NCBI RefSeq assembly: GCF_016793285.1
Contig: NZ_JAEUMO010000016.1
Coordinates: 1 to 63,377, forward strand
Length of the DNA stretch: 63,377 nucleotides
Direction: 5' to 3'
DNA from: Phenylobacterium sp.
GTDB lineage: Bacteria; Pseudomonadota; Alphaproteobacteria; Caulobacterales; Caulobacteraceae
The stretch's first letter is position 1. The number at the start of each line of letters is the position of its first letter. Both the position numbers and the translations under genes were made by a program. This document shows, piece after piece, positions 54,110 through 61,494 of this stretch. The notes under the pieces were generated by a model that was given only the letters and a program-made list of their open reading frames with translations, was not told the origin of the DNA and ran no database searches.

Positions 54110-54928
54110 ATGTCCGCGTTCGACGCCCGTGACCTGCTCGACTGCTATGCGCGCGGCGTCTTCCCGATGGCCGACGCGCGCGAGGACGACCGCGTCTTCC
54201 TGATCGACCCCGAGCGGCGCGGCGTGATTCCGCTCGACGCCTTCCATGTTCAGCGGCGGCTGGCGCGGACGGTGCGGTCGGACCGGTTCGAGGTGCGGGT
54301 GAACACCGCGTTCCACGAGGTCGTGCTCGCGTGCGCGGCCTCGGGTCCCGGCCGGACGGAGACCTGGATCAACCGGCCCATCGAGCGGCTCTACCTGCGG
54401 CTTCACGAGACCGGGCACGCCCATTCCGTGGAGTCCTGGCAGGACGGGGCGCTGGTGGGCGGGCTCTACGGCGTCTCCCTGCGCGGCGCGTTCTTCGGCG
54501 AGAGCATGTTCTCGCGGCGCACCGACGCCTCGAAGGTCGCGCTGACGCACCTGGTCGCCCGGCTGATCGCCGGCGGCTTCCGCCTGCTGGACACCCAGTT
54601 CATGACCGATCACCTCGGCCGGTTCGGCGCGCAGGAGATCTCCCGCGCCGAGTACCATCGCCGGCTCGCGGCGGCGATGGAGGCCACCGCCAGCTTCTAC
54701 GTGGCGGGCGCGGCGGGTTCGCTCCTGGGCGCGGGCGGCTCGGCTTTCGGCGCCGGCGTCGCCGCGGGCGGCGGGGTCGCGGGCGGCGGCACGGCCTTGG
54801 CCGGCGGAAGGTCGAGCACCTTGGGCTCCTCGGCCGCGGGCGCCTTGGCGGGCGGCGGGCGCGCGGCGGCGGGTGCGACGCCCGGCGCGGGCGCGCTGGC
54901 CCTGCAACTGATCGCCCAGGCGTCGTAG
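54110..54928 (+). CDS. aat: Leucyl/phenylalanyl-tRNA-protein transferase, with extended C-terminus
   Basis: N-end-rule enzyme that adds Leu or Phe to N-terminal Arg or Lys and so marks proteins for ClpS-ClpAP. The normal core occupies residues 1 to about 198: [90 protein letters not shown] and [23 protein letters not shown]. From there a 74-residue Gly/Ala/Ser-rich tail continues, entirely inside the 232-bp antisense overlap with the DUF2155 gene. The tail is not part of the family and may be functionless read-through. A GCTAGACG -10-like element lies just upstream of the ATG. Confidence 0.92.
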
Positions 54929-55518
54929 GTGGCGTGCTCGACCGGGTTCAGGCCGGGCGACGACGCGAACATCCAGCCCCTGAACGCCCGCTTCGGCGCC
55001 GGCGTCGGCCGGCCGGGCTGCGGGCGCGGCTGGGAGTCGATCGTCACATAGACGACGGAGTCCTCGATGGCCTCGTCGGGCGCCGAGCGTTCGCAGGCGC
55101 TGACGGTGAAGACGAGCCCCTTCCAGCGCACCGGCGCGCCGACGCGGGCTTCGAACCTCAGGGTCTCGGCCGTGACCTTGTCGAGGGCCTGGAGGACGGC
55201 GACGTCGTAGGCGCGCGAGCGGCGGATGGGCGCGTCCGCGGGCTTCTCGGCCACGCGCTCGCGCGGCGCGGCGGCCGGCGCGACGTCCTTGGCCTCGACG
55301 GGGGCGGCGGCGGCCGGCGCGGGCGCGGCGACCGTCGCCGGCGGCGCTTCCTCGGGGGGCGCGGCGAGCGGCGCGGACGGCGCCTCGGGCGGCGGCGGCG
55401 GCGACGGGGCGGCGGGCTGGGCCGAGACGACGCCCGCGACCAGGCCGCCGAGCACCAGCCCGCCGAGACCGAGAAGCGGGGCGGCGCGGCGGATCAGGCG
55501 GGCTGGCGGTCGGCGCAT
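54697..55518 (-). CDS. DUF2155 domain protein, periplasmic
   Basis: Secreted protein of 273 residues. A signal peptide ([23 protein letters not shown]) is followed by a Pro/Ala-rich stretch (35-95) and the DUF2155 core (about 125-205): [61 protein letters not shown]. The family is restricted to alphaproteobacteria and its function is unknown. After C205 a second Pro/Ala-rich tail runs to the stop, antisense to the 3' end of aat. It lies four bases after the NDUFA12 gene on the same strand, a pairing seen in many alphaproteobacteria. Confidence 0.85.
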
Positions 55519-55522
55519 GCCG

Positions 55523-55927
55523 CTATTCCGGGCTCCAGGCCTCGTAGTCGCCGGTGGCGCGCTGGCGCTCGCCGCCGCGCGAGATCGCGCCCGCGGGCCG
55601 GCGCGCGTAGATGGTGCCGGTCAGGTTGGGCAGGTGGTCCTTCTCCCACGCCCGGCGGGGAAGCGGCGCCACGGTCGGCGGCTCGTCGAACGTGTAGCGC
55701 AGCCAGCCGTGCCAGTCGGGCGGCACCTTCGAGGCGTCCGCGTAGCCCTTGTAGATCACCCAGCGGCGCTTGCGGCCCTTGTCGTAGGCGTCGCGGTCGT
55801 CGCGCGCCTCGTAGTAGCGGTTGCCGAGCTCGTCGGTCCCGACGTAGCGGCCGCGGCGCCAGGTGGTGAAGTGGATGCCGGTCGTGGCGCCGTTCCACCA
55901 GGTGAAAATGGTCTTCAGGACGGACAA
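55523..55927 (-). CDS. NADH:ubiquinone oxidoreductase accessory subunit NDUFA12
   Basis: Small complex I accessory subunit of 134 residues (17.2-kDa type), shared by alphaproteobacteria and mitochondria. The family pattern is clear: LKTIFTWWNGATTGIHFTTWRRGRYVGTDELGNRYYEARDD, RRWVIYKGYADASKVPPDWHGWLRYTFDEPPT, and the C-terminal RATGDYEAWSPE. The start appears to be a TTG at 55927, since no ATG or GTG lies near. It is the first gene of a pair with DUF2155. Confidence 0.92.
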   Translation of the reverse strand: MSVLKTIFTWWNGATTGIHFTTWRRGRYVGTDELGNRYYEARDDRDAYDKGRKRRWVIYKGYADASKVPPDWHGWLRYTFDEPPTVAPLPRRAWEKDHLPNLTGTIYARRPAGAISRGGERQRATGDYEAWSPE

Positions 55928-56008
55928 ATCGGGGCTCTTCTCGGACCGGGTTGCGGCCGGACAATAGCCGCGCCGCCCCGCCCCGCCAAGGGCGGCTTTC
56001 CCGGCAAT

Positions 56009-56042
56009 ATGTTGGGGATTAGCAGGGTTCTACATCCAACAT
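56009..56042. promoter_or_regulatory. Inverted repeat upstream of the NrdJ-like gene
   Basis: ATGTTGG (56009-56015) and CCAACAT (56036-56042) form 7-bp arms 20 bases apart, 56-90 bases upstream of the ATG. This could be a repressor site. The remaining 170-base gap holds no other obvious signal. Confidence 0.35.
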
Positions 56043-56097
56043 CTATTGTCCCCGAATCGATTCCCCGCCCTACCTTGTCCGGATGGGGAGAGACCTC

Positions 56098-58566
56098 ATG
56101 GACAGCGAAACCTCGCGGGCGGGAATCGAGGGCCGGATCCTGGAGCTGGGCGACCGGCTCGTGGAGGTCGAGGCGCCGGCGCACTTCACCGGCGCCCGCG
56201 TCGAGGCCTGGGTCGACTGGGCGGGCGGGCGCACCGACCTCGCCGACGCCATCCTCGAGGCCGCTCACGAGATCTCCGCCAGCGCGCAGACCAAGGGCCT
56301 GACCCCCGACCTCAAGACCCGCACGACGTTCCGCGGACACCTCGCCGAGGCCATGCTGCTGGGCCACGTCGCGCTCTCTCCGGCGGCGCCGACGCTGAAG
56401 GTGCTGGAGCCCGGCGACGAGGCGCTGGAGCGCGTGACGGCGGCGCATCGGGGCCGCGAGGCGGCACAGGCCGCGGCGGCGCTGACCAGCGGGCGGCTGC
56501 AGGCGGTGATGGACGCGGTCCTGCGCTGCGAGGGCGATGCCGAGGCCTGCGCGGACCTGACGCGCAACGCCAGCCTGGCCCGGGCGGCCGACGCCGCGCG
56601 GGCCGCGGGCGCGGCGGACGCCACGATCCTGGACGCCATCGCGCTGGCGCGCGCCGGCGAGACCGCATGGCTGTGCTCGGCGCCGCCGCCGGCGCCGGCG
56701 ACCCCGCTCGTGGCGCCGGGCGCGACCGGCGCGGCGCTGGCGCGCGCGGCCTGGACGACAGGACGGGTCGTCGCCGCCCGGGACGGGGGGCGCGCCTCAG
56801 CCATCGCCGAGGCCGCCGCCCTGCCCGCCGCCGGCGTCGAGCTGATGGCGTTCTGGCGCGACGGCGCGTTCGACGAGGCGGCGTTCGAGGCGACCGTGCG
56901 GCTCGCGGCCACCGCCCTGGCGGCGCTCCACGACGGGCCGGTGCGGCTGGGGCTCGCCGGCCTGGGCGACTGGCTCGCGGCGCATGGCTTCGACTACGAC
57001 AGCGACGCGGCGCGGCAGGCGGCGCGCAACCTGTTCCAGGCCGCCCATGACGCGACCGGGGAGCTGGACCTCGACCTGCGCGTCGCCCTGTTGCAAGACC
57101 CCGAGCTCGCGCTGCGCCTCGGCGCCCGGACGGACGCCGCGCCCTGGGACGGGCCGGTGGCCGTGGCCGAGACCTCCGACGGCGAGGCCGTCCGGGTGCT
57201 GTCCGAGGCGGCGATCCTGGCGCTCCACGCCGTGGGCGCGGACCAGGCGCAGGTGCAGGGCCTGCTGCTGGGCCACCGTCACTTCGCAGACGCGCCGGGC
57301 GTGAACGCGCAGACCTTGGCGGCGCGCGGGTTCACCAGCCTGGAAATCGAGGCGGCACAGGCCGAGCTGCCGTTCGTGCGCAGCCTCGCCCATGCCTTCG
57401 CACCCCACATCGTGGGCGAAGGCTTCCTGCGCGACGTGCTGGGCGCGACGCCGGAGCAGATCGCCGACCCCGCGCTGGACGTGCTGACCCTGGCCGGGTT
57501 CGCGGCGGCCGACGTCGCGGCGGCCGAGGCGTTCATCCTGGGCGGCGACACCCTGGCCGGCGCCGCGGCGCTGACCGACGATCAGCGGGCCGTGCTGCGG
57601 ACCGCTGCGGAGGTTCCCCTCGCCGCCCAGGCCGCGATGCTCGCGGCGCTGGCGCCGGTGCTGGACGCGCCGCCGGTTCTGGAGATCGCCCTGCCGTGGT
57701 CGGCGACGATCGCCGACGTCGAACAGGCGCTAGCGACCGGCGACATCGCGATCCGGCCCAGGCGCGAGGGACCGCCCTCCGCCGCCGCGCTCGCCATCCC
57801 GGCCGTGGCCGACCTGCCGGCCCGCGTCCAGACGCAGCAGCCGGAGCCCGAGCCGCGCGAGCGCGTGGTCGAGCGGATCGTCGAACGCGATCGGACCCGC
57901 CGGAAGCTTCCGGACCGCCGCAAGGGCTACATCCAGAAGGCCAGCGTGGGCGGCCACAAGGTCTACCTCCACACCGGCGAGTACGATGACGGCGAGCTGG
58001 GCGAGATCTTCATCGACATGCACAAGGAAGGCGCGGCCTTCCGCTCGCTGATGAACAACTTCGCGATCGCGGTGTCGCTGGGCCTGCAGCATGGGGTGCC
58101 GCTGGACGAGTTCGTCGACGCCTTTGTCTTCACCCGCTTCGAGCCGGCGGGAGAGGTGAAGGGCAACGACACCGTAAAATCAGCCACTTCCATCCTCGAC
58201 TACATCTTCCGCGAGCTCGGGATCAGCTACCTGGGCCGCAACGAGCTGGCGAGCGCCGACCCCGGCGAACTCAACGCCGACGGCCTGGGTCGCGGCAAGG
58301 CGGACGCCGCCGAGGCGGGTCTCACCACCGAGCCCGAGCCGCAGCCGGCGTCGCGCTTCATCAGCCGCGGGTTCGCGCGCGGCGCGGCGCCCGACAACCT
58401 GGTCTTCCTGCCCACCGCAGGCCGGCCGCCGGGCTCGGCGGCGATGGCCTCGGCCGAGGTCTGCGCGGCCTGCGGCGACATCGCCGTGGTGCGCAAGGGC
58501 CAGGCGCTGATCTGCGAGACCTGCGGCGCGCGCGCGGGTCGGTTTCCGGAAGCCCCGACCGGCTAA
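56098..58566 (+). CDS. Degenerate NrdJ-like protein with TSCPD domain and C-terminal zinc ribbon
   Basis: Protein of 822 residues related to class II ribonucleotide reductase (NrdJ, usually about 1,200). Residues about 605-720 are a well-kept NrdJ C-terminal segment ([56 protein letters not shown]), and C789/C792/C806/C809 form its zinc ribbon. Weaker matches precede it: [21 protein letters not shown] (about 282-302, like IGLGITGLAD) and [20 protein letters not shown] (about 440-460). The catalytic parts are missing: there is no NPCGEQ, no finger-loop Cys, and no Cys at all from about 205 to 788. It is therefore very unlikely to reduce nucleotides. A GGGGAGAG site supports the ATG at 56098. 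It could be a regulatory pseudoenzyme; the function is unknown. Confidence 0.8.
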
Positions 58567-58655: not shown

Positions 58656-59672
58656 ATGTCGCGTTTGTCCCGTTTCCTGGCCGCCGCGGCCGCCGCGTCC
58701 ACGATCCTCCCGATCGCCGCCGCCGCATACGCCGGCGAAAAGGAGATCCCCATGCGCAAGTCGTTCGGGGGATCGTGCGTGAAGTGCGAGCTGTCCGGCC
58801 GCAACCTCTCCGGCGCCAGCATCATCGGCGCCAACTTCTCCGGCTCCACCATGATCGGCGTGATCCTGCGCGACTCGAAGCTGCACGCCTCGGTGTTCGC
58901 CAACGCCGACCTCAGCAAGGCCGACCTGTCCGACAGCGCCATGACCGGCGCGAACTTCTCCGGCGCCAACCTCACCGCCGCCAAGATCCGCTCGGTCGAA
59001 GCCAACGGCGTCGTCTTCGGCAGCGCCAACCTCACCCGCGCCGACTTCGGCGACAGCCAGGCCACGGGCGCGGTGTTCGCCAAGGCGATCCTGGCCGGCG
59101 CCAACCTGCGCTCGATGACGATCCGCGGCGCCGTCTTCTCGTCCGCCGACCTCAGCCAGGCGGTGCTGAACGACATGGAGGGCGCGGGCGCCGTCTTCGA
59201 GCGCGCCACTCTGCGCAACACCAGCTTCCGCTCGGCCGAGCTGCAGGGCGCCAACTTCTCGCGCGCCGACGCGCGGGGCGCGGTCTTCTCCGATGCCGAC
59301 CTGACCGGCACCGTGCTGGTCTACGGCACGTTCGAGCGGGCCTCGTTCCGCTCGGCGGACCTGACGGGCGCGAACCTGCAGGGCGCGACCTTCGACGGCG
59401 CGGACTTCCGCGACGCGGACCTGTCGCACGCGCTGTTGCAGGGGGCCGACCTGTCGGGCGCGCGCGGGCTCACCCAGGACCAGGTCGACGACGCCTGCGG
59501 CGACTCGCGGACGCGCCTGCCGTCGGGGCTGACCCTCAGGGCGTGCAGCGGCGCGCGCCTGATCTACAGGAACCACCCGAAGCCGGCGGTCCGCTTCGCG
59601 CCCCCCGTTCCGCCCGCGCCCCCGGTCCCGCCGACGCCCCGCTACTTCGTCGCGGCCACGAAGGGGCCCTGA
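58656..59672 (+). CDS. Secreted pentapeptide-repeat protein
   Basis: Protein of 338 residues. A signal peptide (RFLAAAAAASTILPIAAAAYAG) is followed by two Cys (GSCVKCELSGRNL) and about 40 consecutive A(D/N)LxG/F-type five-residue units from about residue 45 to 275, which should fold as a right-handed quadrilateral beta helix. A C-terminal part with two Cys (DDACGDSRTRLPSGLTLRAC) and a Pro-rich tail (PPVPPAPPVPPTP) follows. Export separates it from the cytosolic Qnr/MfpA gyrase-protecting type. Its role is unknown; a structural or envelope function is possible. It stands between the NrdJ-like gene and aspS. Confidence 0.85.
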   Translation: MSRLSRFLAAAAAASTILPIAAAAYAGEKEIPMRKSFGGSCVKCELSGRNLSGASIIGANFSGSTMIGVILRDSKLHASVFANADLSKADLSDSAMTGANFSGANLTAAKIRSVEANGVVFGSANLTRADFGDSQATGAVFAKAILAGANLRSMTIRGAVFSSADLSQAVLNDMEGAGAVFERATLRNTSFRSAELQGANFSRADARGAVFSDADLTGTVLVYGTFERASFRSADLTGANLQGATFDGADFRDADLSHALLQGADLSGARGLTQDQVDDACGDSRTRLPSGLTLRACSGARLIYRNHPKPAVRFAPPVPPAPPVPPTPRYFVAATKGP

Positions 59673-59715: not shown

Positions 59716-61494
59716 TCAGACCTTGATCGGCGGGGCGAGGCGGATGTGCAGCTCCTTGAGCTGCTTGTCCTGCACCTCGGACGGCGCGTTCATCATCAGG
59801 TCCTGGCCCTGCTGGTTCAGCGGGAAGGCGATGACCTCGCGGATGGCGTTCTGGCCGGCCAGCAGCATGACGATGCGGTCGATACCGGGCGCGAGGCCGC
59901 CGTGGGGCGGCGCGCCATGGCGGAAGGCGTTCAGCATGCCGCCGAACTCCTCCTCGACGGTCGAGGCCGGATAGCCCGCGATCTCGAAGGCGCGGACCAT
60001 GATGTCCGGCCGGTGGTTCCGGATCGCGCCCGAGCACAGCTCGTGGCCGTTGCAGACGATGTCGTACTGGTAGGCCAGGATATCCAGAGGATCCTTGCTG
60101 TTCAGCGCCTCCAGCTCGCCTTGCGGCATCGAGAACGGGTTGTGGCTGAAGTCGACGTGGTTCGTCTCCTCGTTCATCTCGAACATCGGGAAGTCGACGA
60201 TCCAGACGAACTCGAAGCGGTCCTCGTCGACGAGCTTCAGGTCGGTCCCGGCCTTGATGCGTGCGGCGCCGGCGAACTTGTAGAAGACCTTCGGGTCCCC
60301 CGCGACGAAGAAGGCGGCATCCCCCTGCCCCAGACCCAGCGAGCCCATCAGCGCGTCGGTCTTCTCAGGTCCCAGGTTCTTGGCGATCGGGCCGCCCCAG
60401 CCGCCCTGGTCCTCGGACCAGAAGATGTAGCCCAGGCCGGGCTGACCCTCGCCCTGGGCCCAGTTGTTCATGCGGTCGCAGAAGGCGCGGCTGCCGCCGG
60501 TCTTCGCCGGGATCGCCCAGACGGCGTTCTTTTTGTCCTCGAGGATGCGGGCGAAGAGGCCGAAGCCGCCGCCGACGAAATGCGCGGAGACGTCCTGCAT
60601 CACGATCGGGTTGCGCAGGTCCGGCTTGTCCGAGCCATACTTGGCGATCGCCTCGCGGTACGGGATGCGCGGGAACGGGTAGGCCGTCACCGGCTTGCCC
60701 TCGCCGAACTCGGTGAAGACGCCGTGCATCACCGGCTCGATGGCCGCGAAGACGTCTTCCTGGGTCACGTAGGCCATCTCGACGTCGAGTTGATAGAACT
60801 CGAGCGAGCGGTCGGCGCGCAGGTCCTCGTCGCGGAAGCAGGGCGCGATCTGGAAGTAGCGGTCGAAGCCCGAGACCATCAGCAACTGCTTGAACTGCTG
60901 CGGCGCCTGCGGCAGCGCGTAGAACTTGGTCGGGTGCAGGCGTGAGGGCACCAGGAAGTCGCGCGCGCCTTCCGGCGAGCTGGCCGTCAGGATCGGCGTC
61001 TGGAACTCCAGGAAGTCCTGCGCGATCATCCGGTTGCGGATCGACTGGATCACCTTCGAGCGCAGGACGATGTTCTTGTGCAGCGTCTCGCGGCGCAGAT
61101 CGAGGTGGCGGTTCTTGAGCCGGATCTCTTCGGGATAGTCAGGCTCGCCGAAGACCGGCAGCGGCAGTTCGGCCGCTTCCGAAAGGACCGCGACGTCCTT
61201 CACCTTCACCTCGACCTCGCCCGTGGGCAGGTTGGCGTTGATCGTCTCGGCGGAGCGGGCCACGACCTCGCCGTCGACGCGGATCACGCTCTCGGCGCGC
61301 AGGTGATCGACCAGGTCGAAGCCGGGCGTCGTCGGCGCGAGCACGAGCTGCGTCAGGCCATAGTGGTCGCGCAGGTCGATGAAGATCAGGCCGCCGTGGT
61401 CACGCTTGCGGTGAATCCAGCCCGAAAGGCGGACGGTCTTGCCGGTGTCGGCGGCGCGGAGCGCGCCGCAGGTGTGGGTGCGGTAGGCGTGCAT
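59716..61494 (-). CDS. aspS: Aspartyl-tRNA synthetase
   Basis: Class II synthetase of 592 residues with the bacterial GAD insertion. The OB anticodon-binding domain ([34 protein letters not shown]) precedes catalytic motif 2 ([21 protein letters not shown]) and motif 3 ([15 protein letters not shown]). The anticodon-loop residue is H33 (KRDHGG), where discriminating enzymes such as E. coli have Leu (RRDLG), and a Gly occurs in VDGEVVAR. Both features are those of a non-discriminating enzyme that also charges tRNA-Asn for GatCAB. The ATG at 61494 is clear. Confidence 0.96.

Follow-up and report, generated by a model that had tools for sequence, protein, structure and literature searches.

Gene order and family assignment

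The window, i.e. the whole stretch of Phenylobacterium sp. DNA that was analysed (63,377 nucleotides), carries an open reading frame of 822 amino acids (aa) at 56098-58566, which is the gene of a class II ribonucleotide reductase (RNR), nrdJ, eroded in place. The gene and its neighbours are as follows.

54697-55518, minus strand: DUF2155 protein, neighbour in the conserved slot
55523-55927, minus strand: NDUFA12, divergent upstream neighbour in the conserved slot
56098-58566, plus strand: reductase-dead NrdJ orthologue, 822 aa; start ATG at 56098, with an in-frame ATG also at 56083
59716-61494, minus strand: aspS, downstream in the conserved slot

Three stretches of the 822-aa protein were matched by the model of B12-dependent RNR, NF005736 (1222 positions; E 2.6e-112). 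The score of 376 bits missed the cut-off of 1737 bits, whereas a true NrdJ (L079) scored 2276 bits. As weak support, the same model gave a sub-cut-off match in the Caulobacter vibrioides control genome, and none of 14 control genomes reached the cut-off. TSCPD (PF12637) was the sole Pfam domain above its cut-off (41 vs 22.8 bits), and it matched all 36 members of alignment A1 (19 short and 17 NrdJ rows) at E 0.01. The Pfam RNR barrel family remained under cut-off (17.9 vs 23.9 bits). Among solved structures, phmmer matched residues 362-501 to R. sphaeroides NrdJ alone (7b9p, 7b9q), of which 7b9p represents the first part of an alphaproteobacterial NrdJ.

The gene order aat, DUF2155 (minus), NDUFA12 (minus), gene (plus), aspS (minus) was present with short genes and, whole or in part, also with true NrdJ in family f5, in some f4 genomes and in other alphaproteobacteria (e.g. 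L094 and L100). At several NrdJ loci, both inside and outside f4, the fetched flanks lacked part or all of this neighbour set. The 822-aa gene occupies this ancestral nrdJ slot and is therefore an orthologue that decayed in place. A paralogue of a complete nrdJ, raised as a possibility by the first-pass annotation, was ruled out by the slot and by the single TSCPD match per genome. In many Caulobacterales loci, with dead or working NrdJ, a pentapeptide-repeat protein lies 3' of the gene (58656-59672 in the window).

The same annotation had described a catalytically empty relative of class II RNR, about a third shorter than NrdJ, with four NrdJ body segments in the right order. This description was borne out by the NF005736 match, the missing catalytic residues (below), the length (822 vs about 1230 aa) and the alignment of all four segments, in order, with NrdJ.

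Loss of the catalytic centre

Relatives were sampled at 133 loci, comprising 61 complete short ORFs (<1100 aa; 59 distinct), 59 complete long ORFs (at least 1150 aa), 11 cut or fragmentary ORFs and two loci without a match. The finger-loop motif NPCSEY was present in 59/59 complete long ORFs and in none of the 61 complete short ORFs, which also lacked NPC as such (0/61). A second batch gave NPCSEY in 11 of 12 long and none of 8 short ORFs. The twelfth long ORF, a full-length NrdJ (L139, 1234 aa), has SPCSEY where others have NPCSEY; this is possibly an early step of erosion, possibly a harmless variant.

A joint alignment was built from the 61 short rows, two duplicate pairs included, and 35 long rows. 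The three positions taken to be those of the catalytic cysteines were Cys in 35/35 NrdJ, but in only 0, 1 and 0 of the 61 short rows. Region 176-275 of L079, which presumably includes loop 1, was at most half filled in 61/61 short rows. Neither the three catalytic cysteines nor the NPCSE finger loop by which a class II RNR is recognised was thus found in the short proteins. Within the 822-aa protein, no Cys occurs between residues 194 and 788, in agreement with the Cys-free stretch of about 205-788 noted at first pass. The loss of the catalytic cysteines and the finger-loop motif had also been recognised then; the motif had been given as NPCGEQ, and that of this NrdJ family is NPCSEY.

Six cysteines are found in the tail of NrdJ. 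Four of them, with CxxC...CxxC spacing, were kept in 61/61 short rows, and the redox pair C1221 and C1233 (L079 numbering) was lost in 61/61; a likely zinc site has thus been separated from the redox pair by evolution. The zinc ribbon, earlier called nearly unchanged, is so in its zinc-type cysteines and not in its redox pair. In the NrdJ of S. nassauensis, the six-Cys array both binds zinc and passes electrons (PMC5704485).

Modules of the protein and predicted fold

The following modules, all on the plus strand, were delimited in the 822-aa protein.

56488-56667: insert 1, residues 131-190, a retained NrdJ insertion with Cys 144 and 151; YebC/TACO1 N-terminal-like pattern in relatives
56695-57177: relic of the catalytic barrel, residues 200-360, lacking the finger-loop motif and the catalytic cysteines
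57181-57600: insert 2, residues 362-501, helical, NrdJ-specific and retained
57898-58257: TSCPD (IscU-like) module, residues 601-720, above the Pfam cut-off
58348-58410: conserved tail segment, residues 751-771, with F-I-S-[KR]-G-F-x-R at 754-761; the underlying row set omits L045, L205, L096, L117, L133, L209 and L141 (missed by the motif pattern)
58453-58542: zinc ribbon CxxC-x13-CxxC, residues 786-815, lacking the redox Cys pair

An AlphaFold model of the 822-aa protein has the RNR-barrel fold, in line with the residual barrel for which such a comparison with NrdJ had been proposed. The predicted fold was also obtained from a short-only alignment devoid of NrdJ, with the TSCPD part poorly predicted there, and imposition of the fold by the NrdJ rows of A1 was thereby ruled out. 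By sequence, no solved structure resembled the TSCPD core (best E 0.95).

Insert 1 corresponds to residues 302-375 of L079. The N-terminal domain family of TACO1 and YebC (PF20772) matched it in 16 of the 36 A1 members with E-values of at most 0.01 (lowest 5.2e-7). Two PF20772 scores, 23.6 and 18.2, fell short of the curated threshold of 36, and the window protein had no match up to E 1. In a PDB profile search with insert 1, the hits after NrdJ were 1lfp (E 0.03), an engineered protein (0.22), 9scz (2.2), 1mw7 (2.3) and 1kon (4.2). The last is named yebC, and 1lfp, 1mw7 and 9scz are YebC-like.

Conservation and selection

Identity was scored in windows of 25 residues between 12 short representatives and 14 NrdJ. 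Across the TSCPD core (976-1075 of L079), short-long identity was 0.79-0.87, compared with 0.84-0.88 among NrdJ. The windows over NPCSEY and PTGTIG fell to 0.15 and 0.14, whereas NrdJ-NrdJ identity there was 0.93 and 0.95. Well-filled windows of the relic barrel had an identity to NrdJ of 0.13-0.33.

In 14 Phenylobacterium rows, dN/dS was 0.074 for TSCPD and 0.065 for the zinc ribbon, compared with values of 0.207 and 0.285 in inserts 1 and 2 and of 0.334 over the body as a whole; these rows include the duplicate pair L009 and L055, and synonymous changes were high (pS about 0.5). In 7 of 8 genome pairs compared, identity was higher for TSCPD than for RpoB. The claims of the first-pass annotation that TSCPD (about 605-720) is nearly unchanged, and that selection acts on the C-terminal module and not on catalysis, are thus supported by the core identity, the low TSCPD dN/dS and the loss of the catalytic positions.

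NrdR-box-like palindromes upstream of the gene

Two palindromes resembling NrdR boxes lie between NDUFA12 and the gene. They form the sole tandem pair in the window scoring at least 32 against an NrdR-box consensus.

56002-56017, no strand assigned: NrdR-box-like palindrome 1, CGGCAATATGTTGGGG
56034-56049, no strand assigned: NrdR-box-like palindrome 2, ATCCAACATCTATTGT, starting 32 bp after box 1

None of 200 shuffles of the region reached the pair score, and a similar pair, 32 bp apart, lies upstream of the class I nrdA of the window genome. NrdR is reported to act through a pair of boxes separated by about three helix turns, and its repression to depend on dATP (PMC9110341); the 32-bp spacing at 56002/56034 conforms to this arrangement.

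For comparisons between genomes, a pair was defined by a score of at least 33 and a spacing of 31 or 32 bp, values chosen after earlier scans of the same regions. Near the start, such a pair was present in 41/46 short genes of the window's family (f1 plus records named Caulobacteraceae or Caulobacterales) and in 0/405 control tiles. True NrdJ of other alphaproteobacteria had a pair in 40 of 54 cases (control tiles 9/865). Pairs were few in the short copies of f2 (0/3), f3 (2/8) and f4 (0/11), in the true NrdJ of f4 (1/10) and f5 (1/7) and in other eroded genes (1/8), for which control tiles gave 1/122. A looser pair test gave 20/21 and 12/14 in the window's family, and 4/21 in the short copies of f2-f4.

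Three loci of genus g18 (probably Brevundimonas) from which the gene has been lost keep NDUFA12 and have no pair, and a sister that has the gene has one. It is therefore unlikely that the boxes serve the divergent NDUFA12. At six f4 loci without the gene, no pair scored above 30. Given the counts in the window's family and the absence of pairs at the g18 loci, the dead gene of Caulobacteraceae most likely still answers to NrdR, to judge from these putative sites. Elsewhere in the order, NrdR-type control seems mostly lost or too diverged to be recognised, in dead and working copies alike.

Distribution within the order

The TSCPD module, in dead or working form, was found in 286 of 298 genomes of the order with one match each, the sole exception being G130 with two weaker matches. 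Among the matches listed, frames in f1, f2 and f3 were mostly 770-990 aa and those in f5 about 1190-1390 aa, with f4 mixed; odd frames were G256 (1164 aa), G262 (432 aa) and contig-edge fragments. The module was absent from 12/298 genomes and is therefore dispensable there. Eleven lost-gene loci were read, and in nine the gene is cleanly missing, with NDUFA12 immediately followed by the pentapeptide gene and then aspS.

An RNR barrel above cut-off was present in 298/298 genomes. In the window genome (97% complete), PF02867 found one protein, the class I alpha subunit NrdA (NF006577, 1023 bits vs 620), and no class II catalytic chain. G009, G051, G057 and other genomes with a dead NrdJ encode an additional RNR barrel protein, about 740-780 aa long, beside the 640-aa NrdA.

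On the TSCPD tree of the order, from which row L111 is omitted (missed by the motif pattern), the eroded state needs 4 changes. The RpoB tree needs 2 changes, and a single eroded clade was not rejected (p-AU 0.217). One origin of erosion inside the order is left undecided by these trees.

Erosion elsewhere in Alphaproteobacteria

In the class, the module was found in 145/212 genomes, nearly all with frames of about 1200-1360 aa. Short exceptions were f19 (526 and 533 aa), f65 (663 aa, in a genome with 10% contamination), f110 (808 aa) and f103 (912 aa), and three f64 genomes with proteins of 272-274 aa that consist of linker plus TSCPD. The count of eroded forms leaves out G552 (L207, a contig-edge fragment), and G495 (1062 aa) and G537 (1098 aa) lie outside the set read. 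The free-standing TSCPD proteins of f64 are encoded as follows.

L200, 5409-6227: free-standing TSCPD protein
L201, 5144-5968: free-standing TSCPD protein
L202, 5700-6521, minus strand (reverse-complement coordinates): free-standing TSCPD protein

These genes occupy the nrdJ slot between NDUFA12 and aspS, and their products have neither insert 1 nor a zinc ribbon. The eroded genes of f64, f19, f65 and f110 adjoin NDUFA12 and DUF2155, and the NPCxE motif is absent from the eroded forms of f64, f19, f65, f110 and f103.

The TSCPD frame was 269-307 aa in 89/93 f64 genomes. In the sister family f113 the module was present in 24/25 genomes, with frames of 1196-1218 aa. In 6/6 f64 genomes tested, the sole RNR was, by match pattern and length, a class I-like NrdA, and in 2/2 f113 genomes tested it was NrdJ. 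Rhodopsin was present in 3/3 f64 and 2/2 f113 genomes tested, and genomes are 1.0-1.5 Mb. The rhodopsin, the AT content, the small genomes and their frequent assembly into one contig suggest that f64 is probably SAR11.

On the class-wide TSCPD tree, 7 changes are required to account for the eroded forms, and their grouping in one clade was rejected (p-AU 0.025), a value to be read with caution as this tree holds very long branches (f65, f19 and L209). The tree suggests that TSCPD was separated from catalysis more than once.

Discussion

The closest known system is the alphaproteobacterial NrdJ (PRK07562/NF005736 type), with which the dead protein shares the gene slot, the order of modules, the RNR-barrel fold and a TSCPD about 80% identical. 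It differs in being about 400 residues shorter and in lacking the catalytic residues, the first barrel region, a match to the class II N-terminal domain and the redox Cys pair. Catalytically dead homologues of the RNR large subunit, in which the RNR fold is used for something else, are known from betaherpesviruses. The kind is therefore known, and the bacterial NrdJ variant is undescribed as far as searched; the viral proteins derive from class I, whereas the dead NrdJ is bacterial and class II, with the strongest selection on TSCPD.

In the passages covered from the open-access literature, no account of this protein as a dead reductase was found, and of two papers that use 'TSCPD' as a whole word, the bacterial one concerns, by its title and abstract, a sulphate reducer. 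According to a review from 2022 on insertions and tails in RNRs, no role has been reported for the class II IscU-like (TSCPD) domain (PMC9669993). The Caulobacter gene CCNA_01966 is listed as NrdJ under nucleotide reduction in a B12 paper (PMC6538847), and is treated as NrdJ or as vitamin B12-dependent ribonucleotide reductase (PMC6538847, PMC5869019). The Caulobacter records L058, L061 and L064 are all short and all lack NPC, and these relatives suggest that CCNA_01966 is no reductase.

We consider it rather probable that nrdJ eroded in place to a reductase-dead form, was kept for its TSCPD module and runs with the dNTP-supply regulon. In cells with ribonucleotide reduction provided by class I NrdAB, nrdJ would have lost its active site, the first region of its barrel and its redox tail, and would have kept the TSCPD module, the zinc ribbon and the two helical inserts on a smaller inert barrel. 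The TSCPD module probably has an activity separable from reduction. The chances are about even that its job lies in DNA-precursor supply, a placement based on the NrdR-type control that the Caulobacteraceae gene keeps, like class I nrdA.

A tentative and rather unlikely proposal is that the protein forms oligomers in response to purine dNTPs and interacts with class I RNR or with a further component of the same system. The dATP/dGTP-induced oligomers of S. nassauensis NrdJ depend on its C-terminal domain (PMC5704485), and dimerisation of the IscU-like domain is suggested as their cause (PMC9669993); a dNTP-responsive oligomer on class I RNR is therefore the leading mechanism. An essential role is disfavoured by the natural losses in the order and by the growth of S. 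meliloti lacking nrdJ when given E. coli nrdAB (PMC6759758).

It might be argued that the reductase is still active through an unusual active site, as the RNR fold is retained in the predicted structure and the B12 paper lists the Caulobacter orthologue under the name NrdJ (PMC6538847). This has next to no probability, given the loss of NPC and the catalytic cysteines and the poorly filled region 176-275 throughout the 61 short rows. A neutral relic in slow decay would account for the drift of the relic barrel and for the clean absence of the gene from nine of the lost-gene loci. It is largely refuted, and very improbable, as frames are intact across the order, dN/dS is 0.07 in TSCPD and 0.33 in the body, the promoter boxes are conserved in the window's family, and the module is kept in 89/93 f64 genomes of 1.0-1.5 Mb. 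NrdJb, the second of the two chains into which the class II RNR of Pseudomonas is split, likewise carries an IscU-like (TSCPD) domain and a zinc ribbon outside the working catalytic chain, and a redox or helper subunit akin to it could serve another reductase. NrdJb, however, shuttles thiols for NrdJa; the dead protein has a relic barrel attached, its redox pair is gone in 61/61 short rows, and no NrdJa was found in the window genome, which has class I NrdA only. Such a role is improbable.

More weight is due to the view, still an unlikely one, that the modules kept in the dead protein have nucleic acid or the ribosome as their binding partner and are unrelated to dNTP supply, NrdJ having been merely their carrier. 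The YebC/TACO1-like pattern of insert 1 in relatives points that way, the zinc ribbon and basic linker could bind RNA or DNA, and RpoB-level conservation of TSCPD fits a near-invariant partner. Against this, the free-standing f64 protein has lost insert 1 and the zinc ribbon, PF20772 scores under its cut-off and leaves the window protein unmatched, and in the window's family the gene is linked to RNR control by its NrdR-type boxes. A broader alternative is that TSCPD has long been a regulator or adaptor of alphaproteobacterial DNA-precursor supply in its own right, the reductase being the dispensable half, and that lineages repeatedly drop catalysis while retaining the module, at the extreme as the free-standing f64 protein of about 274 aa; this is possible, with the balance somewhat against it.

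For the preferred reading of a dead reductase kept for its TSCPD module, the tandem NrdR-box-like palindromes upstream of the dead nrdJ are new here. The TSCPD end is almost unchanged in many bacteria and therefore probably has an undescribed job there. As nature has parted TSCPD from catalysis, its role is directly testable.
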